Origin: Kineobactrum sediminis
GTDB taxonomy: Bacteria > Pseudomonadota > Gammaproteobacteria > Pseudomonadales > Halieaceae
DNA: 64,000 bases
Direction of reading: 5' to 3'
Assembly: GCF_002868715.1 (NCBI RefSeq)
Contig: NZ_PKLZ01000011.1
Location: 1-64,000, forward strand
Numbering within the stretch: position 1 is the stretch's first letter; each line of letters starts with the position of its first letter. Positions 48,220 through 64,000 of the stretch are shown here, in pieces. The position numbers and the translations under genes were made by a program. The notes beneath the pieces were generated by a model, which was given only the letters and a program-made list of their open reading frames with translations, ran no database searches and was not told the origin of the DNA.

Positions 48220-48228
48220 GCTGCCGTT

Positions 48229-48999
48229 ATGTCCAGCCCACTCAAGGCAATTATCTGCGGATACGAAAAATCAGGTACGACCTTGCTCAATGAAATCCTG
48301 CGCCGCCATCCAGATATGGATTCGGGCTTCGAGTGCGGATTCCTCCTGGGTGATTCGCCACAAGATTTTCCGGGGATTCAACCGTATTACGGAAATTTTC
48401 GTAAAACGTGGCAACTCACTCGCCAGGATATGCATTACATCTGTAACACTGATGACTGGCAGGAGTGTTATGCACGTGCCAGGGAACGCTGTCCCTTTAT
48501 TGCAGATAAGACAACCGGTCTTTTCGACAAGACGCCTATTTACATGCTCCACTTGAACGCCGTCCTGAATAAAATGCCCCAGCTGCCGTGTGTCGTGAAT
48601 GTTCGTGACCCGCGCGCTCTGTTTCTATCCTGGGCCAGGTGGTCATGGCAAGAGAATCCAGAACAGTGGATAAACGATAATTTTGAAGTAAACTGCCGCC
48701 GGTTTATCAGCTATGCCGAGGGATACCGCCAGGCACTGGCATCCCACGGTGACAGAATTATTGTCAACCAGTTCGAAGTCTTCTGCCTTAACGCCGAAAA
48801 ACAACTGGAAAAAATATTCAATCACCTTGGATTATTGTTTGACCCCGACTATCTGTATTTTTCTTCCAGGCATTTTGTCTACGGAAACACCATCTCCGAT
48901 GAATACGTGTTTCCCTATCGCGAAGCGTTTTCCAACGAACTTTGCGAACGTATTCTCACTGCCACAGAAAAATACTCAGAGTGGCACTATCATGCCTGA
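48229..48999 (+). CDS. Sulfotransferase family protein A
   Basis: 256-residue PAPS-type sulfotransferase. The 5'-phosphosulfate loop is CGYEKSGTTLLNEIL (residues 10-24, P-loop-like GxxKSGTT), and the 3'-phosphate motif is VVNVRDPRALFLSW at about residues 123-136. DKTPIYMLHL follows the usual sulfotransferase pattern of a conserved Lys/Thr-Pro. The enzyme would transfer sulfate from PAPS to a hydroxyl of a glycan or small molecule. It lies 9 bases after the PhyH gene and shares its operon. Base composition here appears richer in A/T than in the housekeeping genes. Confidence 0.85.
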   Translation: MSSPLKAIICGYEKSGTTLLNEILRRHPDMDSGFECGFLLGDSPQDFPGIQPYYGNFRKTWQLTRQDMHYICNTDDWQECYARARERCPFIADKTTGLFDKTPIYMLHLNAVLNKMPQLPCVVNVRDPRALFLSWARWSWQENPEQWINDNFEVNCRRFISYAEGYRQALASHGDRIIVNQFEVFCLNAEKQLEKIFNHLGLLFDPDYLYFSSRHFVYGNTISDEYVFPYREAFSNELCERILTATEKYSEWHYHA

Positions 49000-49026
49000 G
49001 CTTCCATCGATCGGCATGGGGCGCCG

Positions 49027-49839
49027 GTGTTAACCCCCTACCGCGACTTGCTGGACAGTCATGGCAGCCCATACTATGAATGCGCAGCCCACGTTCCCGA
49101 CCCGGTTGCAGTTGGGGGTGTCGGCGGCAGCGGCACGCGTGTTATCAATCAGCTTCTTGCGGAACTCGGCTTTTGCATGGCCACACCCATGAATGATGCC
49201 GGCGATGCCCTCGAATGGCCACCCCTGGATAAGCTGTTGGCACCGTGTGCGCATGGTATGGAAGCCCGGGATCCTGACTTCTTCAGGGCCCTCAACGTCC
49301 TGGACGGATTGCTGGCCCTCAGGCGACATAACCTCGGGGCCACTCTGCGTTCGGGCTGGAAAGTCCCCAGCACCTTCCTCTGGCTTACCGGCCTGGCAGA
49401 GTTCTTTCCGCAGATGCAATATATACACCTGATAAGAAATGGCCTGGACATGGCGTACTCCGGCAACCAGAGGCAAGTTCGAAGGTGGTCGGCCAAGTTC
49501 GGTATTAACGGGGATCACGGAGCCGGAGATAGAATGCCACCGGCACTCATGCTCGAATACTGGCTGCGAGCCAACAAGTTCGTACTCGATACTGGCCCTG
49601 AACTCCTGGGCAACCGATTCCTTCTTGTCAGGTACGAGGCCCTGTGCCTTAATCCCGAGAAAGAAATCCGTCGTCTCTGCGCATTTCTGGAAACCGACAT
49701 TGAATCGACCAGGCTGCAGCTGCTCGCCAGCAGGATTACTCCGCCGGCCTCTCTGCACCGTTACCGAAAGGCCCGGTGGCAGGAAGATTTCAGTACACAA
49801 CAACTGCAAAGGGTCCAGGCACTGGGCTACACTCCCTGA
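49027..49839 (+). CDS. Sulfotransferase family protein B
   Basis: 270-residue sulfotransferase-like protein. It opens with AVGGVGGSGTRVINQLLAELGF (residues 28-49), a glycine-rich variant of the PAPS loop in which the usual Lys is not evident, and has MQYIHLIRNGLDMAYSGNQ as the 3'-phosphate motif. WKVPSTFLWL corresponds to the conserved KTP-like block. Start GTG 49027, the only initiator giving the complete loop. Its stop is immediately followed by the ATG of the next gene (TGAATG), so the pair are probably coupled. Confidence 0.75.
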   Translation: MLTPYRDLLDSHGSPYYECAAHVPDPVAVGGVGGSGTRVINQLLAELGFCMATPMNDAGDALEWPPLDKLLAPCAHGMEARDPDFFRALNVLDGLLALRRHNLGATLRSGWKVPSTFLWLTGLAEFFPQMQYIHLIRNGLDMAYSGNQRQVRRWSAKFGINGDHGAGDRMPPALMLEYWLRANKFVLDTGPELLGNRFLLVRYEALCLNPEKEIRRLCAFLETDIESTRLQLLASRITPPASLHRYRKARWQEDFSTQQLQRVQALGYTP

Positions 49840-50760
49840 ATGTCGACATCCACGGAATCACACAAGCCGCCCCTGATTCATATCGGGATGCCAAAAGCCG
49901 CGTCCACCTGGCTACAACAGCGATTTTTCAGGCCGGAACACGGGTACAAATTATGCTATGGCCCCCTGGCCGCCCACCTGGCATTCATTTCGCCACGGCC
50001 GTTCTGCTGGACGCCCCCCACCAACACGGGCGTTGAAAAGGCCGGCAGCCTGACGCCGGTCATATCCTGTGAAGCACTTTCGGGGGACCCGCTATCGGGT
50101 GGTGCCGATGGCGAAATGATTCTGGCGAGGCTGCATCAGGCGCTTCCGGATGCCAGAATCCTGATTGTTATCAGGGAGCAGATCGACATGCTGCGGTCGC
50201 TTTATCAGCTTCTGGTGAATTGGGGTTACCCTTACAAACTCGATCTGCTGGCAAATAACACGCTCTCCGCCAAGGCCCCCCGATTCGAACCGGCCTTCCT
50301 GTGCTACGATCGCATCATCAAAGCCTATCAGGATGCCTTCGGACATCACAAAGTCCTCGTTCTCAGTTTCGAGGAATTCCGCTCACAACCCCTGATTTTC
50401 CTCAATAAACTGAATCTTTTCTGCGGGGTTGAATCGCCGCCTCATGCCCCGCAGCCAGCAGTACATGAACGCATCAACAGCAAGCGGGATCTTTTCAGTC
50501 TCGAGTTGAAACGGCTGTACAACCGCCATATCGCCAGAACGGTATTTGATATGGGCGGCTTCTACTCCCCCGCCAGGATACAGGCGGCAGGCAACGTCTC
50601 CCTGCCGGCACCCAGGATACTGACCGATATATACGAGCGCAGATTCAGTCAACGCGCACGGTCCCTTATTGGGCCGTTGTACGAAGAGAGTAACCTCAAC
50701 ACGGAACAACTGACCGGGCTACCCCTGGGTGCTCTCGGCTACATAAAAGGTTCAAGATAG
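49840..50760 (+). CDS. Sulfotransferase family protein C
   Basis: 306-residue protein with LIHIGMPKAASTWLQQRFF (residues 12-30), the GxPKxAST PAPS-binding loop, and RILIVIREQIDMLRSLYQLLV as the 3'-phosphate region. Asn-rich middle and C-terminal helices resemble bacterial sulfotransferases of polysaccharide loci. Only distantly similar to A and B. It begins directly after B and ends directly before the methyltransferase gene, so the operon is very tightly packed. Confidence 0.8.
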   Translation: MSTSTESHKPPLIHIGMPKAASTWLQQRFFRPEHGYKLCYGPLAAHLAFISPRPFCWTPPTNTGVEKAGSLTPVISCEALSGDPLSGGADGEMILARLHQALPDARILIVIREQIDMLRSLYQLLVNWGYPYKLDLLANNTLSAKAPRFEPAFLCYDRIIKAYQDAFGHHKVLVLSFEEFRSQPLIFLNKLNLFCGVESPPHAPQPAVHERINSKRDLFSLELKRLYNRHIARTVFDMGGFYSPARIQAAGNVSLPAPRILTDIYERRFSQRARSLIGPLYEESNLNTEQLTGLPLGALGYIKGSR

Positions 50761-51519
50761 ATGATCACATGGACAGGGAAAAAACATTTCGAATTGGGTG
50801 ACACCAGCTTCCGCCTGGTCAATTTTCAAGAGTCGCACGTGAAGGCTGGTGATGACGCCCAGATCATCTTCAAGGAACGCTGGATGATCGAGCGCTACAC
50901 ACACCTCTTCACCAGGATAAAGCCACAGAATATTGTTGAACTGGGAATCCACCAGGGTGGCAGCGCAGTATTTTTTCATAAACTGGCAGAAAGCCCCAAA
51001 CTGGTCGCCATAGAGTTGAACGAAAACAGGATCGAAAGCCTGGATTCCTATATCCGGGACCACGGCCTTGAGACCTCCCTGATTCCGGTTCACGGGGTAA
51101 ACCAGGCAGATAATCATCGCGTCAGCCGGATTCTCGACGAAGAGTTTGGCGACCGGATGATTGACCTGGTCATTGACGACGCTTCCCACTTCCTCGACGA
51201 AACCCGCGCTTCCTTCAATACGATTTTTCCCCGCCTGCGCCCAGGTGCCGCCTATATCATCGAGGACTGGTCCTGGGCACACGCGGACGCGGGAGCCCCC
51301 GATGACTCCCCTGGCTTTTATCCGGAGCGCGAACCACTCACCAAACTCCTGTTTGAGATTGTTCTGGCCTGTGGGTCGACACGCAACCTGATCAATCGCG
51401 TGGAAATCGACAATAACTCAGCAATAATCTGGCGTGGCACAGCCTCTCTGGCCGCGGGTGAGTTTGATATCGCAAGCAGCTGCCTGGCCCGGGGGCGTAA
51501 CCTGGTCAGTATCGGCTAA
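50761..51519 (+). CDS. Class I SAM-dependent methyltransferase (CmcI/Methyltransf_24 type)
   Basis: 252-residue methyltransferase. Motif I is NIVELGIHQGGSAVFFHKL (about residues 58-76), with an acidic end of beta-2 (AIELNENRI), and motif IV-like DLVIDDASHFLDETRASF places a metal/substrate-binding Asp-Asp-x-x-His. Relatives methylate hydroxyls of sugars or antibiotics such as cephamycin. ATG 50761 follows the stop of sulfotransferase C without a gap. Last gene of the + strand operon; it converges with the - strand glycosyltransferase gene with 19 bases between and no terminator visible. Confidence 0.8.
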   Translation: MITWTGKKHFELGDTSFRLVNFQESHVKAGDDAQIIFKERWMIERYTHLFTRIKPQNIVELGIHQGGSAVFFHKLAESPKLVAIELNENRIESLDSYIRDHGLETSLIPVHGVNQADNHRVSRILDEEFGDRMIDLVIDDASHFLDETRASFNTIFPRLRPGAAYIIEDWSWAHADAGAPDDSPGFYPEREPLTKLLFEIVLACGSTRNLINRVEIDNNSAIIWRGTASLAAGEFDIASSCLARGRNLVSIG

Positions 51520-51538
51520 AGGGCCAAGCCTGCCGGGA

Positions 51539-53095
51539 TCAGGATGAGCGTCCCCTGACGTTGCCACTTATATCGCCGGCATCATCACGCCAGGTCTGTA
51601 CGTCACCCGGCTGACTAAGGACGCCGAGATCGACTCTTGAGGAGGTGCTCATACAGTGTGCGCGCGGCGTCCAGAGCAACACCGGCGGCGAGGTTGCGGA
51701 AGGTTGAACACCGGCAAGGAACTGCGTGGACGTGGTCAGGTAGCCAGAGTCAAAACACATTGGCGAGGGACTGCCATGACGAGTATCCAGCAATATACAG
51801 GCAGTAGAAAGGGCGCATACCTCCAAATCGAAAGACAACACGAACGCGCTGATGCTCGATTCATAATCAGAGTCTGTTCCGACCTCAACTGCGGGCGCAA
51901 TCACGCCACCAGCAAGCTGCAAGGCCGGTCCTACTGCTACCGCATGAGTGCCTTTTAGCCTGGAAACCATCGCCAGCACCGCGCCGGGAGAAGCCACCGT
52001 GATGCCCGCCATTACCAGTAATACCGGTCCGGCGGGTCGTGAGGAAATCCAACAACAAATTGCCCCGGACAGACTCGCCGGGCGCTCATGTAGCGTTTCC
52101 AGCCGCAAACGGAGACCGTCGGGCGTATCCTCTACGACAGATTTGCAAGTCAGGCGAATATCGGCTTCATCACTACCATAGACCAGGCACGACAGCTCAC
52201 CGCCCGGCTTGTCGAAAGCCAGAGTGTTGTAGATCACCTGGTCCGGATGGGGCTCGGGCCGGGCACTGCTGCCCAGGCGCAACAGATGGTCCCGAAGCAC
52301 AGCACGGCCTCTCTTTACGGCCAGGCCAAGGTTGCCAAGGGAAACTGAACCCTCCACAACGCGCCAGTGATACAACAGCTCCGGAATATGCAGAATTTCA
52401 CTGCGCCCGAGCGACTCGACCGCCCTCAGGACATAATCATAGTCCTGGCTGCCATCGCACTCTGGCGCCATACCACCCAGGCGGGCGACGAGATTCGCGC
52501 TGTATACGCTCAGGTGATTGAGGTAGTTATGTGACAGGAGCAGAGCATGATTCCAGGCTGGCTTGAAGTAGGGATCCGCCCTGGCGCCAGTAGCGGTAAT
52601 CCGGTCCGAGTTGGTGTAGATCAACCCAGCTTCCGGGTTGCTCCGAACCGCCAGACAAATATAGAGCAGTGCATGCCTCGCGAGTCGATCATCATGGTCC
52701 AGGAGAGCAACAAAGTCGCCCGCAGCGTCAGACAGCCCCACATTAGTTGCCCCTGCAATGCCATGGTTCTCGGGCAGAAACCTGACTCTGACTCGTGGAT
52801 CAGCCGCCGACATCTGCATCAGCAGTTCACCAACGCCAGAATCGGGTGACGAGCCATCATCAATCAGGCATAGCTCCCAACGTGGGTAACTCTGCTGCAC
52901 TACAGACGCAATACACTCCCGCAACCATGCCAGCGGCGTGTTGCAGACAGGCACCACCACGGATAGCAGCGGATCCGTATCGGCGAGCAGAAAGTCCCGA
53001 AAAACATCCTCATGGCGGAGTTTTTCAGCCTCCAGGTACCGAAGGAAAGTGTCGCACTTGTCCGGTGCGTCTCCGGAGTTTATGGAAGCAGTCAT
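51539..53095 (-). CDS. Two-domain GT2 glycosyltransferase with degenerate second domain
   Basis: 518-residue protein. Residues 45-250 form a GT-A domain: LSVVVPVCNTPLAWLRECIASVVQQSYPRWELCLIDDGSS, ALLDHDDRLA (the DxD) and DGSQDYDYVLR (the ED-like catalytic part). The second half (about residues 290-470) shows a faint second GT-A fold ending VAVGPALQLAGGVIAPA, matching the region where related two-domain enzymes have PEVGAVGAKLLYPDG, but without its DxD. ATG 53095 lies 2 bases after the stop of the preceding gene; a longer frame to 53170 would overlap it. It is the last gene of the run that begins at 58706. Confidence 0.82.
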   Translation of the reverse strand: MTASINSGDAPDKCDTFLRYLEAEKLRHEDVFRDFLLADTDPLLSVVVPVCNTPLAWLRECIASVVQQSYPRWELCLIDDGSSPDSGVGELLMQMSAADPRVRVRFLPENHGIAGATNVGLSDAAGDFVALLDHDDRLARHALLYICLAVRSNPEAGLIYTNSDRITATGARADPYFKPAWNHALLLSHNYLNHLSVYSANLVARLGGMAPECDGSQDYDYVLRAVESLGRSEILHIPELLYHWRVVEGSVSLGNLGLAVKRGRAVLRDHLLRLGSSARPEPHPDQVIYNTLAFDKPGGELSCLVYGSDEADIRLTCKSVVEDTPDGLRLRLETLHERPASLSGAICCWISSRPAGPVLLVMAGITVASPGAVLAMVSRLKGTHAVAVGPALQLAGGVIAPAVEVGTDSDYESSISAFVLSFDLEVCALSTACILLDTRHGSPSPMCFDSGYLTTSTQFLAGVQPSATSPPVLLWTPRAHCMSTSSRVDLGVLSQPGDVQTWRDDAGDISGNVRGRSS

Positions 53096-53097
53096 GC

Positions 53098-54003
53098 TCA
53101 GCCAGTCTTCATTAACAATCTGGTAGCCTGGTTGGGCATGGTGCCGTAATAAACAATATCCTTCTGGCAAACCGCAAAGGGCTTGCCGCGAATTTTCTCA
53201 TACTGAACCAGGTACTCGGACCAGCTCTGGCGCTGCATTTCCGGGGTGGCATTGGTAGTCACTCCGCCGTGCAACTGGTGAAATGTAGCCTCGCCCAGCA
53301 ATTGAACAACATCAGCTTGCGCAGACTCCGACAATCTCAGGCACAGATCCGGCAGCAGTGCACCTCCCCCGGGAAGGTCAAAGCATTCATCACAGCCGCC
53401 AACGGCGGTGAACAGGTTTTTTCTGAAGAACAGGCAGTTACTTTCGAACATCCTGACGAACCAGTACAGTTTGGGTCGTGTCGCGGGGTCTTCGTACAGG
53501 CGGTAGGGTACACCGATCTCAAACAACCGATAACCGTCGCGCCGCCAGTCCGCCCGGCTCAACAGGTCTTCCTCCACAGCCGGAGTGTAGCCTTCCTGCA
53601 GGGTCCGTGGCTGGGGGCCGGGCCCCAGATAGAACTGCGCGGTAAACACCACCGGTTGCGCCCGTGCGCGAAACATGTCCAGGGCAGATGCCAGAACTCC
53701 CGGGGTCAGGATATGTGCGCCATCGACCATAAGGCCTATGACTTCACCCCTCGCCTGGCTGATGGCCTGGTTAATGGCCAGCGCCGGTGACGGCGGCGGC
53801 GTGGTCAGCCTGATATAGCGGACATTGGGAGCGACACCGATAACATCCGCCTCCTCAAGGGGAGCATCAGAGCCATTGTCGACCACAATGATTTCGTAAT
53901 CATCGACATCAATCCGCGACTGATAATCGGCGGTCAACGAATACAGTGAGTTCATCGCCACCCGATTCATGTTGTAGAAAACGATTACTACCGACAGCTT
54001 CAT
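53098..54003 (-). CDS. GT2-like glycosyltransferase, DGA paralog 1
   Basis: 301-residue GT-A fold protein starting MKLSVVIVFYNMNRVAMNSLYSL, with EIIVVDNGS in the nucleotide-binding part. The expected DxD is replaced by LMVDGAHILTPGV. Other diagnostic blocks are RRDGYRLFEIG, FDLPGGG and FHQLHGGVTTN, which probably build the acceptor site. It overlaps the next upstream gene by four bases (ATGA). Paralogous to 54000-54899 and 57726-58706. The donor sugar is unknown; GT2 enzymes invert and usually use UDP- or dTDP-sugars. Confidence 0.78.
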   Translation of the reverse strand: MKLSVVIVFYNMNRVAMNSLYSLTADYQSRIDVDDYEIIVVDNGSDAPLEEADVIGVAPNVRYIRLTTPPPSPALAINQAISQARGEVIGLMVDGAHILTPGVLASALDMFRARAQPVVFTAQFYLGPGPQPRTLQEGYTPAVEEDLLSRADWRRDGYRLFEIGVPYRLYEDPATRPKLYWFVRMFESNCLFFRKNLFTAVGGCDECFDLPGGGALLPDLCLRLSESAQADVVQLLGEATFHQLHGGVTTNATPEMQRQSWSEYLVQYEKIRGKPFAVCQKDIVYYGTMPNQATRLLMKTG

Positions 54004-54899
54004 TTTATGGGCCTGCTGCGCCGGTGAATCTTGGCATGCTCCGTGGGAACATGTCCCAGATAATGGATGTTCTTGTCGGTTACCGTGGAGTCCGCACCCC
54101 GGATTACGCGATACTGATCGTGATAACGCTCTACCTTGGCGTCGCGATCTTCAGGCGTCACATTGGTCGTAATGCCGCCATGCAACTGGTGGAAGCTGCC
54201 CTCACCCACCAACTGCACCGGGGTTATCCCCTCAATTTTTGCGGCTTCCGCGTAAAGATCAATATTCAAAAAGCCACCGCCCGGAAAGTCGAAACGTTCA
54301 TCGGCTCTTCCCATCGTGTTAAAATCCTCTTTGGCGAGAAACAGGCAGTTGGTCTCGAACATCTTGCTGAGCCAGGTAATTTTCGGTTGCCTGCCCTGTA
54401 ACGCCGCACCGATTTCAAACAAGCGATAACCGTCCCGGGGCCAGTCAATTGAGGCGAGCAACCGGTCCTCTTCCCGCTTGCTGTAGCCTTCCAGGATGGT
54501 CTCATTCTGGGAGCCCGGACCAAGGTAAAAATAGCGTGTAAGTACCACACATTGCCCGAATGCCCTGAATGCTGACATGGCAAGACTGAGTACTCCGGGG
54601 GTCAGGATGTGCGCACCATCAATCATGAAGCAGAGAATATCGCCCCGTGCCTGGACGCTGGCAAAGTTCAGCGCAAACGCTGGCGAGGGTTTACCCTCTT
54701 CCAGGTAGAAGTAGCGAAAATTTGGCCCGAATGACTCCACCATTTCCCGGTCCACCGGGTCAGGCGATTTATTGTCAATTACCAGCACCTCATAATCTTC
54801 CTCCGCGATGCCTTGCTGATAGTTGGCAGTCAGGCTTTGCAATGTACGGGGAATCTCGCGTTGCATATTGTACGCGATGACAATCACGGACAGTTTCAT
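54000..54899 (-). CDS. GT2-like glycosyltransferase, DGA paralog 2
   Basis: 299-residue paralog of the neighbouring gene. It begins MKLSVIVIAYNMQREIPRTLQSL, has VLVIDNKSPDP, FMIDGAHILTPGV in place of a DxD, PRDGYRLFEIG, DFPGGGFLNIDLY and FHQLHGGITTN. The middle of the protein (about residues 170-200) is shorter than in paralog 1. Both ends overlap neighbours by four bases (ATGA), so it is translated as part of a continuous operon with the methyltransferase upstream. Confidence 0.78.
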   Translation of the reverse strand: MKLSVIVIAYNMQREIPRTLQSLTANYQQGIAEEDYEVLVIDNKSPDPVDREMVESFGPNFRYFYLEEGKPSPAFALNFASVQARGDILCFMIDGAHILTPGVLSLAMSAFRAFGQCVVLTRYFYLGPGSQNETILEGYSKREEDRLLASIDWPRDGYRLFEIGAALQGRQPKITWLSKMFETNCLFLAKEDFNTMGRADERFDFPGGGFLNIDLYAEAAKIEGITPVQLVGEGSFHQLHGGITTNVTPEDRDAKVERYHDQYRVIRGADSTVTDKNIHYLGHVPTEHAKIHRRSRPIK

Positions 54900-55762
54900 G
54901 CCAGCCCCCCCTCAACCACAGACCCTGCCGCCTGTTCCGCTTCCAACAGACGAATGTGGTCTTCAGCCTGATTGAGGCGCCGGTTAATGGCCTGCATCAT
55001 AATCCCATCTACGCACCGCAGATGTTCGGCCTGTTGCAGCAAGCCCAGAGTATGCGCAGGAAGATCAAATTTGCCCAACTCGGCGAACAGGGCTGCATTG
55101 GCAGCTACCGTTGAACTCGGCGCAAGCACGCCAATACCGTAATAGGTGGGCAAGTGCCTGAATACCCATGCCTCACGGGAGTCGGCTATATAATCCTCCA
55201 CCGCGGTCATCACGCCGTTGCGCGGGCCGCCCTCTTGCACTGCGTTGCACAGATCCGCATTCATGCCACCGGCCTCGACCAGCTCGTTCCGGTTTGGCAG
55301 GATTCCGCGCCTTGCAAACGGCTGCCGAAATGCAGCAGGTATCACGTCGGGATTATAGTAAAGATCCCGGCGGCCGTAGGGCCAGCCCAGGTCGTGGATA
55401 AAGATGAGCGGCTGGTCGGCGCCATGTTGCCTGTGTAGTTCCTCCAGTTGTTGCAGCTCATGGTAGACCGTATACCAATTGTGGTCCCCATCCAGCAGCA
55501 CTACGTCAACCGGCGTCAAACCCGGCAAAACATTGAGGCTCAGGTCCCCGTGGAAGGAAAATCGGGAGCCATATTGTGACGACAACACCGCTGGATCGAA
55601 CTCCGGACTGGGATCTATACAGTGGAGATGACCGTTGCGTTTATCCACGTACTTGGCCAGCGTTGTAGTGCTGCTGCCATATTCTGCACCAATTTCCAGT
55701 AACTTTGTCGCTCCAACAGCCTCGCAGATCGGCATGAGCAAGTGTTTCCAGAGTTTTATCAT
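54896..55762 (-). CDS. Class I SAM-dependent methyltransferase (Methyltransf_24 type)
   Basis: 288-residue methyltransferase. Motif I is KLLEIGAEYGSSTTTLAKYV (about residues 20-39), with acidic HCIDPSPEF at the end of beta-2. DVVLLDGDHNWYTVYHEL matches the metal-binding Asp-Gly-Asp-His block of CmcI-like enzymes, and HDLGWPYGRRDLYY adds a second His. About 90 C-terminal residues form extra helices, the last 40 probably coiled coil. Four-base overlaps with both neighbours. It is only distantly related to the methyltransferase at 50761; probably acts on the same glycan (inference). Confidence 0.78.
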   Translation of the reverse strand: MIKLWKHLLMPICEAVGATKLLEIGAEYGSSTTTLAKYVDKRNGHLHCIDPSPEFDPAVLSSQYGSRFSFHGDLSLNVLPGLTPVDVVLLDGDHNWYTVYHELQQLEELHRQHGADQPLIFIHDLGWPYGRRDLYYNPDVIPAAFRQPFARRGILPNRNELVEAGGMNADLCNAVQEGGPRNGVMTAVEDYIADSREAWVFRHLPTYYGIGVLAPSSTVAANAALFAELGKFDLPAHTLGLLQQAEHLRCVDGIMMQAINRRLNQAEDHIRLLEAEQAAGSVVEGGLA

Positions 55763-57729
55763 TTGTTTTTCGTTCCTTCAGCAAAGTGACAACTACCCGC
55801 GAGCAAGTGCTCAATGGTACGGCCTGGTGGCGAATTGTCAGGGGCCTCGTGATAAATCATTTCATTGTACAAAAGCGGCCGTGACAGGCGACCCCGAAAA
55901 CGGCGTTCGCCCTTGTGATCCTGGCCGAGATAAGTAGGCTCAAGATAGTCGTCCGGCTCGAGGACGGAATCATCCGACAGCTTATGGTCTGCCGTCTGCC
56001 CATCGATAAAAAGAGTGGCAGTGTTGAAATTATTGCCGGGGAAACGCGTCGATTGCTTGAAGAATGCCGTCACCGCCACGTTAACGCAGTCTTTTCCCGC
56101 AGGCAGTTCACCGCGAAGGCTGAGCCCTCCCATTTCTATGGCCACGGTATTTTCATCAAGGCTGGCAGACCAGGCCCCCTTTTGCAGGGCAAGGACCTGC
56201 TCCCCCCTCTCACCGGCTTCCATCGAGGCCGACGTTTGTGTATTTGCCTCCGGATATAAATCGATGGCGAAGGTAAACCCGCCGGATCCGGGTGTACGCT
56301 GGAGACTGTGTCCTTGCAGGGTCGCTTTTCCGCGATCATCCAACGGGTGGTAGCTGACTGGCAATTCGCGCGAGGACTGCCGCCATATCACGTACTGCCG
56401 GGTCAGCTCTGCCACTATTGCGGGGTATCGGGATGCTACATCTGTATCCCCCGCCGGGTGTATCGCGAGGTCATACAACAGGGGGTGCCCTGTATAGTTC
56501 TGGTAAAGTCGCCAGCGTCCATCCGCTGACAGCGCTCCCCAGCTGATATATTTCGGCGTAACGGTTTCCCAGAATAGCGGCCCCACTTCACGCTCCTGTC
56601 CTGCCAATAGTAACCGCAAATCCCGACCGTCCAGACCGGCTGGCCTCTCTACCCTTGCGGCAGCCATAATGGTGGGGAAGTAGTCCAGATTAGTGACGGT
56701 TCCATGATACACTTGGCCTGCATTCAGCACTCCCGGCCAACGCAGCAGCAAAGGTGTTCGCAGCCCCCCCTCCGTATAGGTCCCTTTGTTTCCGCTGAAG
56801 GGTGCGTTGCTTTGCTCCTGTTGCCGTCCCGTGCCACCGTTGTCACTCGCGACAATGAGCAACGTATTGCGGTCCAGGCCAGACTCCCGCAGAGCTTGCA
56901 TGACGGCTCCGACAGCCATATCGGCGACTTCCACCATAGCCCTGTACTTGCCCTCGGGCGTATCCGGGTAGCGCGCAGCCACGTCGGCAGGTGGCTGCAG
57001 AGGGCTATGGGGAGCAAAGGGCCAGTAGTTGAGAAAAAAGGGTTTCGATTCACCCCGGCTGGCACGGATCAGTGCAACCGCCCGGGACTTCAGAATGTCA
57101 CTCAGATGCCCTTCGTGGCGACTGAAATATTCTTGCTGGTCATACAACCAGGGATTGAAGTAAGTTGGCCGGCGCGGAGTCAGCTCACCTTTCCCGTCCA
57201 GACCCTGTAAAAACCACTGGTGCGAGAACCCGAAGAACGAGTCGAAGCCCTGAACCGCAGGCATGGCCAGCGGAGTGGTGTGGCCGAGGTGCCACTTGCC
57301 GACATGGTGGGTACTGTAGCCGTTGCCCTGCAATACCTTGGCCAGGGTGGGGACCTCCGGTGAAAGACCGCGATGGTCAGGGCGAAATCCGTGACTGGCA
57401 GGCGCGGTACCGGTAAGACTCCCCGCGCGGGACGCGGCACAGGTACTATCGGCGTAGTGGCGGGAAAAATAGACTCCTTCATTGGCCAGTACCGCCAGAT
57501 TAGGCACGGCGAGCTCCGCTGCACCCGGCAGATTAATGTCACCGTAACCCAGGTCATCCAGCAGGATGAGCACAATGTTGGGTCGCGAGGTCAAATTTTC
57601 CGCTGATTCGACGTTTCCCGGATCCCGGCAGGCGGCCAGCACCAAGAGCAGGCATAGAAGCAGGATGCCGGGCCTACCCCGCATGATTACCGCCGCGGCC
57701 AGGCAACTGGGGACTGCCCCCGCAATCAC
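55759..57729 (-). CDS. Lipoprotein sulfatase with C-terminal lectin-like domain
   Basis: Type I sulfatase of 656 residues. The formylglycine motif is C97-A-A-S-R101 (C-x-A-x-R), with metal ligands D58-D59 and a DNGG block near 296, and HVGKWHLG carries the active-site Lys and His. Residues 17-34 are a lipoprotein signal with lipobox LAAC (C34), so the enzyme should be anchored in an envelope membrane. The last 170 residues look like a concanavalin/LamG-type beta sandwich (FTFAIDLYPE, TATLFIDGQ). GTG 57729 overlaps the previous stop (GTGA); ATG 57684 is the alternative and gives a shorter signal. No maturase (FGE) is in the window. Confidence 0.85.
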   Translation of the reverse strand: MIAGAVPSCLAAAVIMRGRPGILLLCLLLVLAACRDPGNVESAENLTSRPNIVLILLDDLGYGDINLPGAAELAVPNLAVLANEGVYFSRHYADSTCAASRAGSLTGTAPASHGFRPDHRGLSPEVPTLAKVLQGNGYSTHHVGKWHLGHTTPLAMPAVQGFDSFFGFSHQWFLQGLDGKGELTPRRPTYFNPWLYDQQEYFSRHEGHLSDILKSRAVALIRASRGESKPFFLNYWPFAPHSPLQPPADVAARYPDTPEGKYRAMVEVADMAVGAVMQALRESGLDRNTLLIVASDNGGTGRQQEQSNAPFSGNKGTYTEGGLRTPLLLRWPGVLNAGQVYHGTVTNLDYFPTIMAAARVERPAGLDGRDLRLLLAGQEREVGPLFWETVTPKYISWGALSADGRWRLYQNYTGHPLLYDLAIHPAGDTDVASRYPAIVAELTRQYVIWRQSSRELPVSYHPLDDRGKATLQGHSLQRTPGSGGFTFAIDLYPEANTQTSASMEAGERGEQVLALQKGAWSASLDENTVAIEMGGLSLRGELPAGKDCVNVAVTAFFKQSTRFPGNNFNTATLFIDGQTADHKLSDDSVLEPDDYLEPTYLGQDHKGERRFRGRLSRPLLYNEMIYHEAPDNSPPGRTIEHLLAGSCHFAEGTKNK

Positions 57730-58706
57730 GCAACACTTCCGCGTCCTCCCGCATTCAGCGCCCTGAGCGCCGAGTCGTGAAGGAATCTCTGAACAGCAGG
57801 GTGGATCGAACCAAGGTAGATCGGGTCAGTCACGGGGCTCGAAAACTCCTCTCCCCGCAAAACGCGATATTGCCTTTTGCTGTTATCAATATAATCATCG
57901 CGCATTTTCGGGTCTTTACCACCGGTGGTAACACCGCCGTGAAATTGGTGAAAGCTGCCCTCGCCATGCAGGACCAGGTGTTGTACTCCGGGAAATTCGC
58001 ACACTCTTTTATACATATCCAGGTTCACCAGGCCCCCGCCCGGCAGATCGAATTGCGGGTCGTAACCGCCAAGCGCCTGCCAGACCCTGACTGGAATGCT
58101 GATGCAGTTGCTCTCGCTGTTGGGCAGGAAAAAACCGGGAGCGCTGGAACCGCTGAAGCAGGCGATATCAAACAGACGGTAGCCGTCGTCAGGCCACGCT
58201 ATGGACGCGAGAAGTTCCCGCTCCACTTCCGCACTGTAGCCGCTGCTTACGGCCTCCTGCTGCAACTCGCTGCCCAGATGGTAACCCGGCACCGCCACTA
58301 TGGCATTACCAGCCGCACGGTGGCCCATGATGATATGCCGGACGACTCCCGGGGTGAGCATTCTCGCGCCGTCTATCATCACGCAAATGCAGTCACCCTT
58401 TGCCTGCTCGGCACCCGCATTGATCGCGCCAACCGGGCTGGGCTCCGGGTCCCGACGCAAAACATAGCGAAAATTGCCCGGCAATGTCTGCAGGAAATCT
58501 TCCCGCATCAGCCTGGATGAAGCGTTTTCGACAATAATGACTTCGTACTCATCGCCGCTCACACCGCGCTGATAACCGGGCAGTAATGAACGCACGGTAT
58601 TTTCCGCCTGCAGCTGCATGTCATAAACCACCACGACAAAGCTGACCAGGGCAGGTTTTTCGAGACCTTGCCGTTTTTTTCCCTTACTGAATAGTCGTGC
58701 CAGCAT
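57726..58706 (-). CDS. GT2-like glycosyltransferase, DGA paralog 3
   Basis: 326-residue third member of the local family. After a basic N-terminus (SKGKKRQGLEK) it reads VSFVVVVYDMQLQAENTVRSL, VIIVENASS, VMIDGARMLTPGV, DDGYRLFDIA, FDLPGGGLVNLDMY and FHQFHGGVTTG. It differs most from paralogs 1 and 2 at the N-terminus and between residues 165 and 200. It is separated from them by the methyltransferase and sulfatase genes, so the duplication was followed by insertion or rearrangement. Overlaps the sulfatase start by four bases. Confidence 0.78.
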   Translation of the reverse strand: MLARLFSKGKKRQGLEKPALVSFVVVVYDMQLQAENTVRSLLPGYQRGVSGDEYEVIIVENASSRLMREDFLQTLPGNFRYVLRRDPEPSPVGAINAGAEQAKGDCICVMIDGARMLTPGVVRHIIMGHRAAGNAIVAVPGYHLGSELQQEAVSSGYSAEVERELLASIAWPDDGYRLFDIACFSGSSAPGFFLPNSESNCISIPVRVWQALGGYDPQFDLPGGGLVNLDMYKRVCEFPGVQHLVLHGEGSFHQFHGGVTTGGKDPKMRDDYIDNSKRQYRVLRGEEFSSPVTDPIYLGSIHPAVQRFLHDSALRALNAGGRGSVA

Positions 58707-58717
58707 GCGTAACCCGT

Positions 58718-59416
58718 TTAGAGACTTGCCCGTTTCAGTTTGTAATATAAAAAGCGTATTTTCCAGGGAAGACCATGATGTGAACGTGCGGCGAAGGTTT
58801 TTAACTGATTGTCATAGAATCGCTGGGGCGAGGCCACGGGATCAAGATTCAACTGACGCACAACGGTATCCACCCTGGCGTTGAAGACGGTCTCCTCCTG
58901 ATCAAAACACAGCAGTGGGAACCGCTCCTGGCACCACTCCCTGTACAAAATGCGATTATAGGCATACCACAGTGACAGCGCCTCCTCTCGCGGGATTTGG
59001 CTACGATTTTGCAAGGACTCCGCAACCGCTTCGGGGTGCCGGAAGATGCCGACATACTCAAGATCCGGCAGTAGCGATTTCCATCCCCCCAGCACCAACA
59101 AGGCGCGCGGATCCTTGAACCCCAGTACGGCACTGGACGCATGGTCCGCCAGCAGTCGGCGACCGGCGGCCAGGTGGCCGGCAGACCAGATGGCACGCTC
59201 GGGAGGCTGGTCCCAGGCACCGCCGCTATCCGCCAGAATCCGGTCATGCAGGTCAACAAATGCCTGGTTTTCCCGATTACCCTTCTTGTTGTAGGGGTTC
59301 CAGGTATGACACTCACCCAGATCCAGGCCCGCCTCCTGCAGCGAGCCGGTCAGGCAACTGGTACCGCTGCGATGCATGCCCAGTATGGCGATCACCCGCC
59401 CGGGTTTTTGATTCAT
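58718..59416 (-). CDS. Sulfotransferase family protein D
   Basis: 232-residue compact sulfotransferase-like protein. PAPS loop: AILGMHRSGTSCLTGSL (residues 10-26). LGFKDPRALLVL corresponds to the KDPR block, and VGIFRHPEAVAESLQNRS is the 3'-phosphate motif. Such short GMHRSGTS proteins occur widely in polysaccharide gene clusters, and not all have proven sulfotransferase activity. It overlaps the AmpG remnant by four bases and precedes glycosyltransferase paralog 3 by 11. Confidence 0.78.
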   Translation of the reverse strand: MNQKPGRVIAILGMHRSGTSCLTGSLQEAGLDLGECHTWNPYNKKGNRENQAFVDLHDRILADSGGAWDQPPERAIWSAGHLAAGRRLLADHASSAVLGFKDPRALLVLGGWKSLLPDLEYVGIFRHPEAVAESLQNRSQIPREEALSLWYAYNRILYREWCQERFPLLCFDQEETVFNARVDTVVRQLNLDPVASPQRFYDNQLKTFAARSHHGLPWKIRFLYYKLKRASL

Positions 59417-59700
59417 GCCTCGCCCTCACGCCATGGCGCCACCCAGAATAAGAGAAGCATACCGGGTAACGCGATTACGGCACACAATAAAAAGGCCATA
59501 TTGTCGCCGATCTTGTACAGGAACATAAACCCGACGACCAGGGCAAACAGCCCGATTTCGGTCAGCGAGACACCCTGGTCCCGGAGCCAGGCAGGAACCA
59601 GCTGCAACAGGACATACAGCGGCATGCCCGAGGCAAGCCCGGTGAATACGCAAGTCAGTATTCGCTTGTTAAATACCGCCGCATGCCATGGGGCCTTCAA
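59413..59700 (-). pseudogene. Collapsed AmpG-like permease remnant
   Basis: An open frame of 95 codons that looks like three pieces of an AmpG-type major facilitator protein joined in frame. Residues 12-51 resemble its first helix and loop (GLASGMPLYVLLQLVPAWL-x5-SLTEIGLF), residues about 54-65 its seventh helix start (FLYKIGDNMA), and residues 66-88 its last helices (FLLCAVIALPGMLLLFWV). A full AmpG is about 490 residues, so roughly 400 residues in two blocks are missing. The start would be TTG 59700. A transporter is not possible; it is a decayed gene or a novel small membrane protein. Confidence 0.65.
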
Positions 59701-59739
59701 TTCCTGGTAATTATTAATCGTAAGACCCTGTGCGCGTGG

Positions 59740-59850
59740 CTATCTGCGTGAAATGAAGAACCAGATTATCACTATCACCCCCATTAGTAATCCCGACTGC
59801 ACCGGATACTGGGCCAGTAAGCGTGATGTGCTACCGCGACCTGCCTTCAT
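59740..59850 (-). CDS. Possible 36-residue single-pass membrane peptide
   Basis: ATG 59850 to TAG 59740. The peptide has a basic N-terminus (MKAGRGSTSRLL), one hydrophobic segment (SGLLMGVIVIIWFFI) and a basic end SRR. It overlaps the 3' end of the sulfotransferase gene by 20 bases in another frame, which resembles the coupled overlaps elsewhere in this cluster. It may be a real small protein or a residue of the degraded permease region. Only the topology can be stated. Confidence 0.35.
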   Translation of the reverse strand: MKAGRGSTSRLLAQYPVQSGLLMGVIVIIWFFISRR

Positions 59851-60949
59851 GGGGGGACAATAAGTCCACCGGGTCGTGCCCTAACTCCGGCCACAAGCCA
59901 AGCTCTGCGTGCATAAGCAGGGCGGCTCGCGCTGCGGCTTGCCTCAGTTCCGGCGATTTAAGCTGACGCAGCTCATGTTTCACGATCGCGAGGAATTCGG
60001 CAATGACCTTTCTGTCGACGTTCTCAAGCTGCAATTCATCAGCCGCCGGTAGCGGTTCGGAAAACAGCTGTTCCTGCTGCAGAAAAATACGGGCAAGACG
60101 GTTATTGTCCCGCTGCCACTGCTTGCGGTAGCGGCCGTACAAGGCACGATTCACGTAAACCGTATTATTGGCGGGCGATTCCGGGCACAAGCGCTGGATA
60201 AACGCCACAACCGTATCATTATCCGCCTTGGGAAAACCGGTCCGATTGAAACAACGCTTGATGTAGAGCTGGTTGACCCCCAGGCCCTGGTTGCTCTCAA
60301 GCGGTGCCGAACCCAGGGCCGGAATGCCAATCGTTGCACAGAAGTCCTGCACAATATCCCCACCAACCCACTGGGCACGCTCGTAAGGACGAATAATAAT
60401 GTTTTCAACGCCAAACGCGCTGGACCAAAACTCCATCAGCCGGGAGTAACTATGCCTGAAAATCTGGTGGGTCCCGTAGAACTCATAGGCACTTCGCGAC
60501 CATTGCCGCGCGCCTTTAACATCCTGGTTATAAAACGAGGCATATAGCTGGTCCTGCCGACGCAGATACACGACGATCTTTACAGTGTGTCCCGCCAGCG
60601 CTTGCCGGATATCCCCCAGCATTGCCTCCAGGCCCACGGACTGGCCGAAAAACAGTTCTGAACTCAACACGACCTTATCAAACTTGCCAGCTTTGGCTTC
60701 AAGCTCGGTTTGCAGGCGTGCCCAGGCTTTCCCGCGTGGAAAATCCCCGTACCAGAAATCCGGCAGGTGCCCGGACTGATGCTTTCCAATCAGGTCCGCA
60801 ACCAGTATGTGGTGGGCATCGCCGTGACGGCACTCGCGAGGGTACAGAACGCCCCGAGAGCCCAACTTGCGCTTGTGCCTGGCAAACACCGCCTGCAGGC
60901 TGGAAGTTGCGGTTTTAGGAGAACCAATGTGAAGATAAACCGTTGCCAT
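59831..60949 (-). CDS. Sulfotransferase family protein E
   Basis: 372-residue protein starting MATVYLHIGSPKTATSSLQAVFARH, where GSPKTATSS (about residues 9-17) is the PAPS loop. VKIVVYLRRQDQLYASFYNQ is the 3'-phosphate motif with Arg and Ser. The C-terminal 130 residues are helical and charged. The frame is open to 60973, but ATG 60949 gives the usual short N-terminus before the loop. Of the local sulfotransferases it most resembles protein C in the PKxAST-type loop. 68 bases separate it from the end of the fused glycosyltransferase. Confidence 0.8.
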   Translation of the reverse strand: MATVYLHIGSPKTATSSLQAVFARHKRKLGSRGVLYPRECRHGDAHHILVADLIGKHQSGHLPDFWYGDFPRGKAWARLQTELEAKAGKFDKVVLSSELFFGQSVGLEAMLGDIRQALAGHTVKIVVYLRRQDQLYASFYNQDVKGARQWSRSAYEFYGTHQIFRHSYSRLMEFWSSAFGVENIIIRPYERAQWVGGDIVQDFCATIGIPALGSAPLESNQGLGVNQLYIKRCFNRTGFPKADNDTVVAFIQRLCPESPANNTVYVNRALYGRYRKQWQRDNNRLARIFLQQEQLFSEPLPAADELQLENVDRKVIAEFLAIVKHELRQLKSPELRQAAARAALLMHAELGLWPELGHDPVDLLSPHEGRSR

Positions 60950-61017
60950 TAAATAGTCCGTCAGGCTGATCAAGAATTATGCAGGATTTACCGGGTGATG
61001 CAGAGAGGACATTGCCA

Positions 61018-63207
61018 TTAGCGCACGATGTCGTGCATGGGTCGCGCCGAGAAGCGACGCTTTATGGCCTGTTGCAGCCCGAACGGGACCAGTGCGACCA
61101 ACCTGGCCACCAGAGGCCTGCGACTGAAACGCCAGATTCTGCCGAGCCAGCGTTCCGAGCTAGTGAGTTCATGCCCGGCGCCACGAAAATTCTCCCGCAG
61201 ACCGGCCATCACAGTGGCACTGACAACCCCGCTGATAACCGCTACACCACGCAGATACTCATCCGCATAGAAATCATGCATTTCATCGGTGGTGTCAACC
61301 GCGGCGAGGCCTGGTTTCTGGTCCATGCCGTGGGCAGCGACATCCTGCCAGAACAGCTGCCATTCCCGCACCGACCTGTCCCAGGGACACACCACACTCA
61401 AGACCCGGCCGGCGACCCGCTCAACGAAAGCGCCTATATCCGGCACGACAACCGGCAGGCCCAGCCGTAGCGCCAGGCTCAGGGTATAACTGTATGTTTC
61501 CGGCCACAGTGCCGGAAACCATACTACATCGGGCGCGATTGTCTTGATCAGGTCTTTGGCCTGTGCGCTGTCGTAAGGCCCATGAGTGATAATGCCCTTG
61601 CCCAAGGCCCGGTAAGCATAGCCCAACAAATGCATTTCAACAGGTGACCCGGCCAGTGCGGCGGCGACCTCTTCCAGGATGTCGGCTCCTTTCTCCCGAC
61701 TGATGGCGCCCACCACCAGAATCCTCAGCGGTCGCGAGTTATCGTGGTGCCACTGGGGTTGCGGATAAGGTTGCGCCGCCAGGTAATCGGGATGCCAGCA
61801 AATAACGGGCTGGGCCACGGTAAAGTACCGCTGAAACCTGCGCGCGCAATCAGTTGAGGGAAAGATGACCCGCCGCGCCCTGCTGACCAGTGGCCTTTGA
61901 TTTAACCGCCATTGCTGCGCCGAAATGCCATCGGGTAGAGGATAATGTCCGGCGCAGCGCTGATCAAATTCCGGACTACTCTCGGCAACAAACCTGGCTT
62001 CGGCATCGGTCAGTGTCGGGTTGCCATTGACCAGATAATAATCGTGGATTGTGAGGTCGTAATCGCAATCCAGCGCCCCCGCGACCGCCCATATCCGCGG
62101 GTGCAGCCCCAATGTGTGATGAAAGTGTACATGACCAACACCCAGCTCCCGCAATAGCGCAACCAGCTTGTCAAACTCGCTGTCGACGTCAAAATACAGT
62201 CCATCTCTCAGCCGTCTACCCTGATCGAATATACCGAGCGTTACCGATTGCCCATCCTGCTCGGGGACCAACTGCAGAAACAGGGCGTCAGCGGCATAAA
62301 GTTTGGCCAGCTCATTCAGGTGTTCCTGTACGCCACCACCCAGCTTGTGCGATATGAACAACACCTTGGGCCGATGTTGGGCTGCAAACAAGCCCAGCAA
62401 TACGGGTATCCGGACCTCCCGTGCGGGGTCCTGGACAACAAATGACCCGATGGTGGCGTGATAATGTGGGTAGCGCTGGTCGAGCAATTCCATTGCCCTG
62501 GCCACCCGCGGGGTCTGCTCCTGCGCAAAGCTGACGCCGCCTTTGTGATAGACAAAACAGTTGCCCAGATGAAGGTTACGCCAGCCCGCCTGTTCCGCAC
62601 GCTGGCACCAGTCATTTTCCTCCCCGTAACCGCGACCGAAAGTATCTTCGTCAAAATAACCGATGTCATCGAGGCAATCCCGGCGCAGGTACATACAGCA
62701 TCCGATACCGGTCGGTATGGAAAACACATCCTCTACTGAAAAATGGGTCGCGAAGTGGCTGTCCAGTTGTGCCACATCCAGGTCAAACAGCAAATTATTG
62801 TCTTTGCAGAAATCGGGAAAGCTGCAAATGGTGGCGTTGTTGGCGAAGGGTGTAAGGCTGGCCACTCTCTGGTGATGGTAGGCAGCCTCCCGTAGCCGGA
62901 ACAGCCAGTCGTTGGCGACCTCGACGTCACTGTTCAACAATACCGCATCATTGTTGGAGTCATAGCGCAGGCCGCGATTGGCGGTAGCGACAAAACCGAG
63001 GTTGTGTTCGTTCTCCAGCAGCACCAGCTGAGGGTTATCAGCAGCATAATTTCGCAACAAGGTCGTAATGTGCGGATCTGGCGAGGCATCGTTGATCACC
63101 ACAAGCCTGGCCCAGGCACTATCCACCGTTGCCAGTGCCGTCTCGATACAGCGACGGGTTTCCTCCAGGCCGTTATAGACCGGAATGATGACATCAACGT
63201 TGCGCAT
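61018..63207 (-). CDS. Fused GT2-GT4 glycosyltransferase
   Basis: 729-residue two-enzyme protein. Residues 1-280 are a GT2 domain: VDVIIPVYNGLEETRRCIETAL, VVINDASPD, VLLNSDVEV (the DxD-type NSDVE) and the GYGEENDWCQRA catalytic block. After a short linker, KVLFISHKLGGGVQEHLNELAKLY starts a GT4-like GT-B half (about 290-680) with ILVVGAISREKGADILEEVA and PETYSYTLSLALRLGLPVV, the nucleotide-sugar site. It could add two sugars in succession. ATG 63207 has a GGAG site; a longer frame to 63309 lies inside the preceding gene. It overlaps that gene by 14 bases. Confidence 0.85.
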   Translation of the reverse strand: MRNVDVIIPVYNGLEETRRCIETALATVDSAWARLVVINDASPDPHITTLLRNYAADNPQLVLLENEHNLGFVATANRGLRYDSNNDAVLLNSDVEVANDWLFRLREAAYHHQRVASLTPFANNATICSFPDFCKDNNLLFDLDVAQLDSHFATHFSVEDVFSIPTGIGCCMYLRRDCLDDIGYFDEDTFGRGYGEENDWCQRAEQAGWRNLHLGNCFVYHKGGVSFAQEQTPRVARAMELLDQRYPHYHATIGSFVVQDPAREVRIPVLLGLFAAQHRPKVLFISHKLGGGVQEHLNELAKLYAADALFLQLVPEQDGQSVTLGIFDQGRRLRDGLYFDVDSEFDKLVALLRELGVGHVHFHHTLGLHPRIWAVAGALDCDYDLTIHDYYLVNGNPTLTDAEARFVAESSPEFDQRCAGHYPLPDGISAQQWRLNQRPLVSRARRVIFPSTDCARRFQRYFTVAQPVICWHPDYLAAQPYPQPQWHHDNSRPLRILVVGAISREKGADILEEVAAALAGSPVEMHLLGYAYRALGKGIITHGPYDSAQAKDLIKTIAPDVVWFPALWPETYSYTLSLALRLGLPVVVPDIGAFVERVAGRVLSVVCPWDRSVREWQLFWQDVAAHGMDQKPGLAAVDTTDEMHDFYADEYLRGVAVISGVVSATVMAGLRENFRGAGHELTSSERWLGRIWRFSRRPLVARLVALVPFGLQQAIKRRFSARPMHDIVR

Positions 63208-64000
63208 GAATACTCCGGAGCCGGCGCAGTATCGGGCCAATAAGGGGGAGTTTGTAAATGTCCTCCAGGTGTTGTTCGAGCTGTGTGATTTGGGCATCCT
63301 TGCGGGCAACGATGTCCGTTAAACGGTGATCAAACTCGATTATTTCGCGATCCCGCCTGGCAATTACCTCAAGCGCCTCGCTGTGCTCTGACCCTATTGC
63401 AGCAAGACGTCGATCAAATTCCATGATCTGGCCGTCACGTAACGCTATGGTCTCCAACGCCAGATCGTGCGCCGCACCGGCTTCAAGCAGGCGCCTGTCA
63501 AACTCCACAATCTGGGCATCACGCTCGGCGATGATTGCCAATGCGCCGCTATGGGCTTCACCGAGTTCGGTGAGTTTGCTGCCCCGTGCCACAAACACCA
63601 CGGCCAGTTCTGAGAGCAGCGTCGTGGAGGAATATTGTGTTTCTATTTCGGCTTCGAGGTCTGGCAGTGACTCGGGAGCAATCACTGCCGTGGCAAGCAA
63701 GCCGCGCGTGTCTCCGGCACTGTCATGATGACGCAGATCATTGCGTACGGCGGTCGCCAGTGCCGCATGGTTAATCACCAGCGGCACGCTTTCCGCCAAA
63801 CGCTGCATCACCGGCACAGGCGCGGTTGCCAGGTCGGCATATGACACCTGAAGCTCGGCGGATGGAAGCCCGCTTGCCAACGCCTGTCGATAAGCGAGAT
63901 CCAGGCGCAAACCATATCCGAGAGGGAAGCCGTCGCGCCGAGACAGTGACTGTGCCACCTCCAGCGGAGGCCGGAAAGCTGTGCAGACTCGCGGCGTGAT
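63194..64000 (-). CDS. Sulfotransferase-like protein with coiled-coil tail (N-terminus outside window)
   Basis: Only the last 268 codons are present; the frame is open to the right edge, so the start is outside. The first residues seen, TAFRPPLEVAQSLSRRDGFPLGYGLRLDLAYRQAL, followed by LQVSYADLATAPVPVMQRLAE, match the 3'-phosphate motif and C-terminal part of sulfotransferases of the RNP-LE-A-SL type. From about 63530 to 63270 the protein is coiled coil built of three 28-residue repeats with the core IxxRDxxIxEFDxRL. The end PLIGPILRRLRSIHAQR is basic and might touch membrane. The next gene, the fused glycosyltransferase, overlaps its end. Confidence 0.78.
   Translation of the reverse strand: MTPRVCTAFRPPLEVAQSLSRRDGFPLGYGLRLDLAYRQALASGLPSAELQVSYADLATAPVPVMQRLAESVPLVINHAALATAVRNDLRHHDSAGDTRGLLATAVIAPESLPDLEAEIETQYSSTTLLSELAVVFVARGSKLTELGEAHSGALAIIAERDAQIVEFDRRLLEAGAAHDLALETIALRDGQIMEFDRRLAAIGSEHSEALEVIARRDREIIEFDHRLTDIVARKDAQITQLEQHLEDIYKLPLIGPILRRLRSIHAQR

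Follow-up and report, generated by a model that had tools for sequence, protein, structure and literature searches.

Three related glycosyltransferase genes

The window, i.e. the whole analysed stretch of 64,000 nucleotides from Kineobactrum sediminis (contig NZ_PKLZ01000011.1, positions 1 to 64,000), carries three glycosyltransferase (GT) genes of the GT2 type at 53098-54003, 54000-54899 and 57726-58706, referred to below as the first, second and third copy. The genes are complete and real. Their coordinates had been given correctly in an earlier note on this DNA; all three lie on the minus strand, which that note did not mention. The motifs it described as common to the paralogs could be read in each translation, in the order first, second and third copy: MVDGAHILTPGV, MIDGAHILTPGV and MIDGARMLTPGV in the DGA region; DGYRLFEI, DGYRLFEI and DGYRLFDI; FDLPGGG, FDFPGGG and FDLPGGG; and, near the C-terminus, FHQLHGGVTT, FHQLHGGITT and FHQFHGGVTT. 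Identity to the first copy was 48% for the second and 36% for the third. In a genome search with the second copy as query the other two were found at E 1.2e-83 and 1.1e-64, and all three passed the gathering score of Pfam PF00535 (42.8, 53.5 and 32.9 bits, threshold 23.3). Judged by these scores, the likeness among the three genes is homology and not chance. A fourth member was not found in the K. sediminis genome when all 19 candidates were scored with a profile of 113 relatives, the next protein reaching 24 bits versus 394-428 for the three copies. None of the curated NCBIfam GT equivalogs scored above its cut-off (best 35.9 bits versus 370; the third copy had no listed match).

The check by structure prediction gave a GT-A fold. 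The AlphaFold2 model of the second copy, built with 113 sequences, had a predicted local distance difference test score (pLDDT) of 94.9 and a predicted template modelling score (pTM) of 0.93. Its best structural match was the chondroitin polymerase K4CP (Z 21.3, root mean square deviation 2.8 A over 224 residues), followed by heparosan synthase (Z 19.7), RmlT (19.4), TarS (19.3), AvpGT (19.2), TarP (18.5), WrtF (18.2), SpsA (17.9) and GalNAc-T2 (17.7); all the best Foldseek rows and all 50 VIA-align rows shown were GT-A enzymes. For the second half of the domain, PDB searches by sequence, whether with the single sequence or with the C-terminal half, produced no useful match.

Relatives were collected by scanning GTDB contigs with degenerate patterns that partly pre-select DGYRLF or FHQ[LF]H; 455 stretches were obtained, 364 of them were relatives and the best 80 were retained. 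From 138 matching open frames one partial frame was removed, identical ones were merged and extra window copies were dropped (the three window proteins were retained), leaving 133 distinct sequences. The alignment of 113 sequences holds 113 of the 119 chosen rows, six rows from loci of the whole-genome search having been left out. Residues are numbered as in the second copy (DGAH 94-97, FHQLHGG 236-242). The tree rows come from nine named phyla (Pseudomonadota, Thermodesulfobacteriota, Planctomycetota, Acidobacteriota, Chloroflexota, Verrucomicrobiota, Vulcanimicrobiota, Actinomycetota and Candidatus Tharpellota), and many of them are metagenome-assembled genomes.

This DGA/HGG family occurred in 7 of 274 genomes of the class (E 1e-20) and in 19 of 58 near-relative genomes (E 1e-15), the own genome being counted in both. 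In the phylum-level search 84 of 398 genomes matched at E 1e-6, and only 10 of these had matches of at least 277 bits (15 matches); with up to five candidates scored per genome, the interval between 277 and 41.7 bits was empty. The matches below 277 bits mostly covered the N-terminal half only, three of them extending to residues 197-221. In the near-relative genomes, where all candidates were scored, the lowest match was 306 bits except for two pieces, with 196 and 82 bits, that belong to a single fragmented genome. On these scores the family is sharply bounded. No family match was detected in phages at E 1e-5. The stand-alone size was common (99 of 134 open frames had at most 450 amino acids).

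The three window copies fell into separate clades of a quick tree, each with Halieaceae relatives: 16 rows (Shimodaira-Hasegawa approximate likelihood ratio support 98, starred), 5 rows (99, starred) and a 33-row group (86, unstarred), which hold the third, the first and the second copy respectively. In the clade of the third copy 15 of 16 rows lay directly downstream of a sulfotransferase. As read from this tree, the copies are old paralogs that were maintained together. Separate old lineages side by side would fit three non-identical reactions without proving them, and the suggestion that the copies stand for three linkages of a glycan is compatible with the tree. Among 88 loci, three of which are pieces of one contig, one copy was found at 49, two at 29, three at 9 and four at 1.

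The donor site and the C-terminal block

GT-A enzymes are usually recognised by their DxD and xED motifs. In the DGA/HGG family D94, A96 and P101 were found in 133 of 133 sequences, G95 in 131 and a His or Arg at position 97 in 132 (53 Arg, 59 His and one Cys in the 113-sequence alignment). Since D94 and A96 are invariant and residue 97 is nearly always His or Arg, the place of the DxD holds one Asp and not two. The two-acid DxD of a canonical metal-dependent inverting GT2 was absent from all 133 sequences, which have one acid in any register, and residues 95-97 were G/A, A and H/R/C in 113 of 113 rows whichever register is taken. By eye, Asp is the last residue of the DxD-like motif in each of the 11 further GT2s that the genome encodes (DAD, DGD, DSD, DDD, DHD, NND, DAD, HAD, NSD, DQD and DAD).

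HMMER placed DGA weakly on the DSD of the later GT domain of K4CP (9.4 bits, independent E-value 4) and on the DAD of dolichol-phosphate mannose synthase (11.9 bits, independent E-value 0.89), with a one-residue insertion ahead of DGA. P101 follows D94 at a distance of 7 residues, and the first DxD Asp has, by eye, a Pro at this distance in 5 of the genome's 11 other GT2s; this spacing favours the register in which D94 equals the first Asp, and D94 is probably that residue. A profile of the DGA region also gave matches to colicin E5 immunity protein and to the FKRP stem, both at E about 0.06; we take them for chance hits or, at most, for a lead.

In hhalign comparisons with ordinary GT2s the xED place falls on residues 210-213, where no Asp or Glu was present in any of 113 rows; the canonical xED base was thus not found there. 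Outside this region E182, G208 and E233 were kept in 132 of 133 sequences, G209 and G232 in 133, and F236, H237, Q238, H240 and G242 each in 133. The earlier note spoke of a strictly kept HGG-TT block. This holds for the HGG (G241 130 of 133), while the TT is loose, T244 being present in 80 and T245 in 125 of 133. The HGG block was aligned by hhalign with the HKGG of an ordinary GT2, offset by one at the His. A separate observation concerns one paralog lineage, in which GGGxL[LM]PD replaces GGGxxNLD, so that Asn 212 is Leu or Met in 5 of 5 rows (L013, L014, L015, L023 and the first window copy).

A second sample, drawn independently of the peptide patterns, consisted of 25 sequences from all 9 other genomes with matches of at least 277 bits in the phylum-level search and from 4 of the 18 other near-relative genomes; 7 were identical to aligned rows, 2 more lie on contigs that equal already sampled ones in length, and 16 were counted as new. 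DGA[HR] and FHQxH could be read in the printed motifs of 25 of 25, an acid at 210-213 was found in 0 of 25, and Asn stood at 212 in 24 of 25.

Genomic neighbours and fusions

Neighbourhoods were compared at 86 loci, the window counted. Before the counts, 68 hits were removed in which the methyltransferase profiles had strayed into a GT domain; in GC-rich loci long antisense frames misled a greedy gene caller, whose clusters c1 and c7 were set aside. An O-methyltransferase of the CmcI/TylF/Methyltransf_24 kind lay within 3 kb at 53 of 86 loci and in the same open frame at 27, the density of methyltransferase hits being 3.32 per 10 kb in the first kb versus 0-0.14 beyond 6 kb. A sulfotransferase lay within 3 kb at 37 loci, a sulfatase at 13 and PhyH at 9. 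Within 5 kb, 27 loci had the methyltransferase only, 26 both, 14 the sulfotransferase only and 19 neither. The constant co-occurrence with sulfotransferases which the earlier note proposed to check was therefore not borne out, methyltransferases being ahead: O-methyltransferases are the strongest genomic link of the family and sulfotransferases the second.

Among 113 methyltransferase stretches within 3 kb there were, in overlapping counts, 84 Methyltransf_24, 42 TylF and 29 CmcI. Of 54 sulfotransferase stretches 52 were scanned (2 short ones were dropped), with 36 matches to Sulfotransfer_3 and 9 to Sulfotransfer_1. Among the scanned proteins Pfam confirmed fusions, for example an actinomycete protein of the order Methyltransf_24-TylF-GT-CmcI and a Mesorhizobium protein of the order GT-TPR-Methyltransf_24, and the fusion state switches at least 6 times on the tree. 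Of ten neighbours chosen from 4 loci of the whole-genome sample, Pfam assigned three to Methyltransf_24 and two to the sulfotransferases; one each was a sulfatase, an ABC-2 transporter and an acyltransferase, and two had no match. At one plasmid locus a CmcI fusion is annotated next to rmlABCD-type genes, and at another a stand-alone copy next to an acyl carrier protein, PhyH, an acyl-AMP ligase and a P450.

Several further observations were made at these loci. Neither the absence of the xED nor the recurrent O-methyltransferase fusion had been mentioned in the earlier note. Long actinomycete proteins hold one DGA/HGG GT domain between methyltransferase domains, three by Pfam in L053:8075-11572 and two in L059:13446-16274; eight more open frames above 1000 amino acids look alike by our own profiles only. 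A 630-amino-acid PF00884 sulfatase adjoins the GTs at L116, in a genome of the same order. Genes resembling the Wzm/Wzt ABC polysaccharide exporter were found near the GTs by phmmer with single seeds, Wzt-like ones at 18 of 100 loci and Wzm-like ones at 15, with examples at L017, L049, L052, L061, L076, L078, L116 and L118; for part of the family this points to polysaccharides that are exported by ABC transporters. The idea of a dTDP-rhamnose donor was rejected: RmlA-, RmlC- and RmlD-like genes occurred at 3, 2 and 3 of 100 loci and RmlB-like genes at 6 (a few loci repeat one contig), besides one plasmid locus, which is too few. An Arg at 97 seemed tied to an adjacent sulfotransferase in the raw counts (24 of 53 Arg rows versus 0 of 59 His rows, the Cys row left out), yet Arg and His change only twice on the tree, so the link is not independent evidence.

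In the window, the minus-strand gene order is sulfotransferase, GT, sulfatase, methyltransferase, GT, GT and ordinary GT2, with 4-bp overlaps at all four junctions between 57729 and 54000. The sulfatase in this biosynthetic run has, by eye, a lipoprotein-like N-terminus (LAAC) and a CAASR motif of the formylglycine type. Sulfotransferases are abundant in the cluster 47212-63958: four have a Pfam match, one of them under the cut-off, and two more are assigned by resemblance only. No exporter or sugar-nucleotide gene was recognised among the scanned proteins of the cluster, and the genes beyond it resemble, by eye, acyl-CoA metabolism (L127).

Positions of the three GT2 copies, their motifs and the surrounding genes in the window
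Feature	Coordinates	Strand	Remark
DGA/HGG GT2, H97 type with GGGxL[LM]PD variant (P0001, 301 amino acids)	53098..54003	-	5-row clade
DGA/HGG GT2, H97 type (P0002, 299 amino acids)	54000..54899	-	AlphaFold2-modelled protein
DGA/HGG GT2, R97 type (P0003, 326 amino acids)	57726..58706	-	16-row orthologue clade
DGAH motif, residues 94-97 of first copy	53713..53724	-	
DGAH motif, residues 94-97 of second copy	54609..54620	-	DxD region
DGAR motif, residues 112-115 of third copy	58362..58373	-	
FHQLHGG motif, residues 236-242 of second copy	54174..54194	-	
Methyltransf_24 class I methyltransferase	54896..55762	-	4-bp overlap with downstream GT2
Sulfatase (PF00884), between GT2 copies	55759..57729	-	4-bp overlaps on both sides
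Sulfotransferase, partner adjoining R97-type GT2	58718..59416	-	PF13469, 23.7 bits, below cut-off 27
Final gene of the run, an ordinary GT2 carrying a DHDD motif	51539..53170	-	upstream start unsure
Sulfotransferase-like protein	59831..60973	-	assigned from neighbourhood cluster and P-loop alone; Pfam gives no sulfotransferase match
GT2 and GT4-like protein with ordinary NSD, GEEND and HKGG motifs	61018..63309	-	
Facing run: PhyH dioxygenase, three sulfotransferases, CmcI-like methyltransferase	47212..51519	+	
Open reading frame cut by window edge	63194-63958		C-terminal part of 399-amino-acid protein; N-terminus sulfotransferase-like by eye (L127 198-1394)

Interpretation and known systems

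The one-Asp site in 133 sequences and the predicted GT-A fold agree with the view that the genes belong to a distinct GT2-type subfamily without the ordinary DxD. A described GT2 family with the same motifs and a known function was looked for in Pfam, NCBIfam, the PDB sequences and three annotated plasmid records, and none was found; the matching plasmid records carry only the annotations "glycosyltransferase family A protein", "CmcI family methyltransferase" or "hypothetical protein". Literature topic searches, which were limited to openly licensed papers and could not query motifs, returned nothing on the family. As far as these searches reach, the DGA/HGG family is uncharacterised.

From the alignments and the model we infer, with a slight preference over its competitors taken together, a discrete GT-A subfamily that would still transfer sugars through a remodelled donor site and make methylated, often sulfated glycans. 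The idea of a metal-independent or altered donor site fits the sequences. In such a site a single Asp, D94, would stand in place of the two acids of the DxD, with Gly, Ala and the cationic residue 97 (His or Arg) next to it, and the other polar groups would be supplied by the C-terminal FHQxHGG block with E233, and by E182. The diphosphate may be held by those cations or by a relocated metal site. Since the usual xED base is absent, the reaction would either be retaining or use another base. To assemble and modify a surface glycan, the enzymes would act jointly with O-methyltransferases of the CmcI/TylF type and, in some members of the family, also with sulfotransferases. Only tentatively can one go further to a new GT-A mechanistic type, which would have dropped the second DxD acid and the base in favour of a His/Arg and an HxxH/Glu pocket, would be metal-free or have a new metal site, would possibly be retaining and would be coupled with O-methylation and sulfation of the same sugar.

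Some of the results weigh against this interpretation. The register of DGA against DxD is not settled: in contrast to the HMMER placement, hhalign without a gap set D94 on the x of the DHD of an ordinary GT2, and a second hhalign set it on the last Asp of an NSD, so that three registers exist. The xED Asp fell on N212 in one hhalign and its equivalent on L211 in another, neither being acidic; N212 itself is not strict (Asn in 101 of 113), and D214 was variable in the 25-sequence sample. The conservation of FHQxH and DGYRLF was partly pre-selected by the scan patterns, and the loss of both DxD and xED is also what is expected of an inactive protein with a GT fold.

The relocated metal site is a sub-case of the remodelled enzyme, and its odds overlap with it: D94 with H237, H240 and/or E233 would bind Mn/Mg, replacing the second Asp of the DxD. 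These four residues are invariant or nearly so, in GT27 and GT8 the metal is bound by the C-terminal His (C-His) (PMC7185993), and the HGG block aligns with HKGG, with an offset of one at the His; however, the Arg found at 97 in 53 of 113 rows would disfavour a metal beside it, and we consider this variant rather doubtful.

The main rival is a pseudo-glycosyltransferase, in which the GT-A-fold domain would bind the acceptor glycan (or a nucleotide) and present it to the fused or adjacent methyl- and sulfotransferases without transferring a sugar. Both hallmarks are missing, the methyltransferase fusion at 27 of 86 loci would suit such a role, and there are precedents in the sources used here: COSMC, an inactive protein that lost both DxD and xED and serves as a chaperone (PMC7185993), and FKRP, whose GalNAc-T-like stem lacks the motif and aids acceptor recognition (PMC6965139). 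The DGA-region profile was colinear with that stem, only at E 0.064 and level with unrelated proteins. On the other hand, D94, A96, E182, G209, G232, E233, H237, Q238 and H240 are each kept in 132-133 of 133 sequences across the nine phyla, many members stand alone, and three lineages were maintained side by side; we thus hold the rival to be unlikely. That the proteins are ordinary GT2s whose DxD and xED acids sit elsewhere and were missed by the alignments is quite improbable, since, in spite of the three registers and the lack of a PDB sequence match for the second half of the domain, residues 95-97 bear no acid in any register and none was present at 210-213 in 113 of 113 rows.

A discrete family in nine named phyla that lacks DxD and xED and keeps a strict alternative set of residues is a clean test of how far the GT-A fold can be rewired, and it provides a marker for loci that may produce O-methylated, sulfated glycans.

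The core residues of the GT-A fold are described as the DxD, the xED, the G-loop and the C-His, with K4CP (2z86/2z87) as the core prototype (PMC7185993). K4CP is the best structural match of the DGA/HGG family, and DGA lies on its DSD in the weak HMMER stretch; by the core description it has both DxD and xED, whereas in the DGA/HGG family a single Asp is present and the xED place is without an acid. Departures from this core are reported as well. The xED Asp is missing in dolichol-phosphate transferases (PMC7185993), and DxD and metal were lost independently in GT14 and in prokaryotic GT6, where the role of the metal is taken by protein contacts or basic side chains (PMC7185993, PMC3961637). 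The bacterial GT6 enzyme has an NxN with cations near the C-terminus (PMC3961637), while the DGA/HGG family has DGA with an adjacent His or Arg, a comparison made by description only.

The bacterial GT2-type enzymes TarS, TarP, RmlT and WrtF share the GT-A fold with the DGA/HGG family (Z about 18-19), and their sequence match is N-terminal only, up to residue 105. The GT27 polypeptide GalNAc-transferases also share the fold (Z about 17.7), match weakly in sequence in the N-terminal half only (E 0.007) and have an Asn at the position of the xED Asp. Their metal motif is altered to DxH (PMC7185993), which the DGA/HGG family does not have. The CmcI/TylF-type O-methyltransferases, recurrent as neighbours and fusion partners, form a separate domain beside the GT2 domain.

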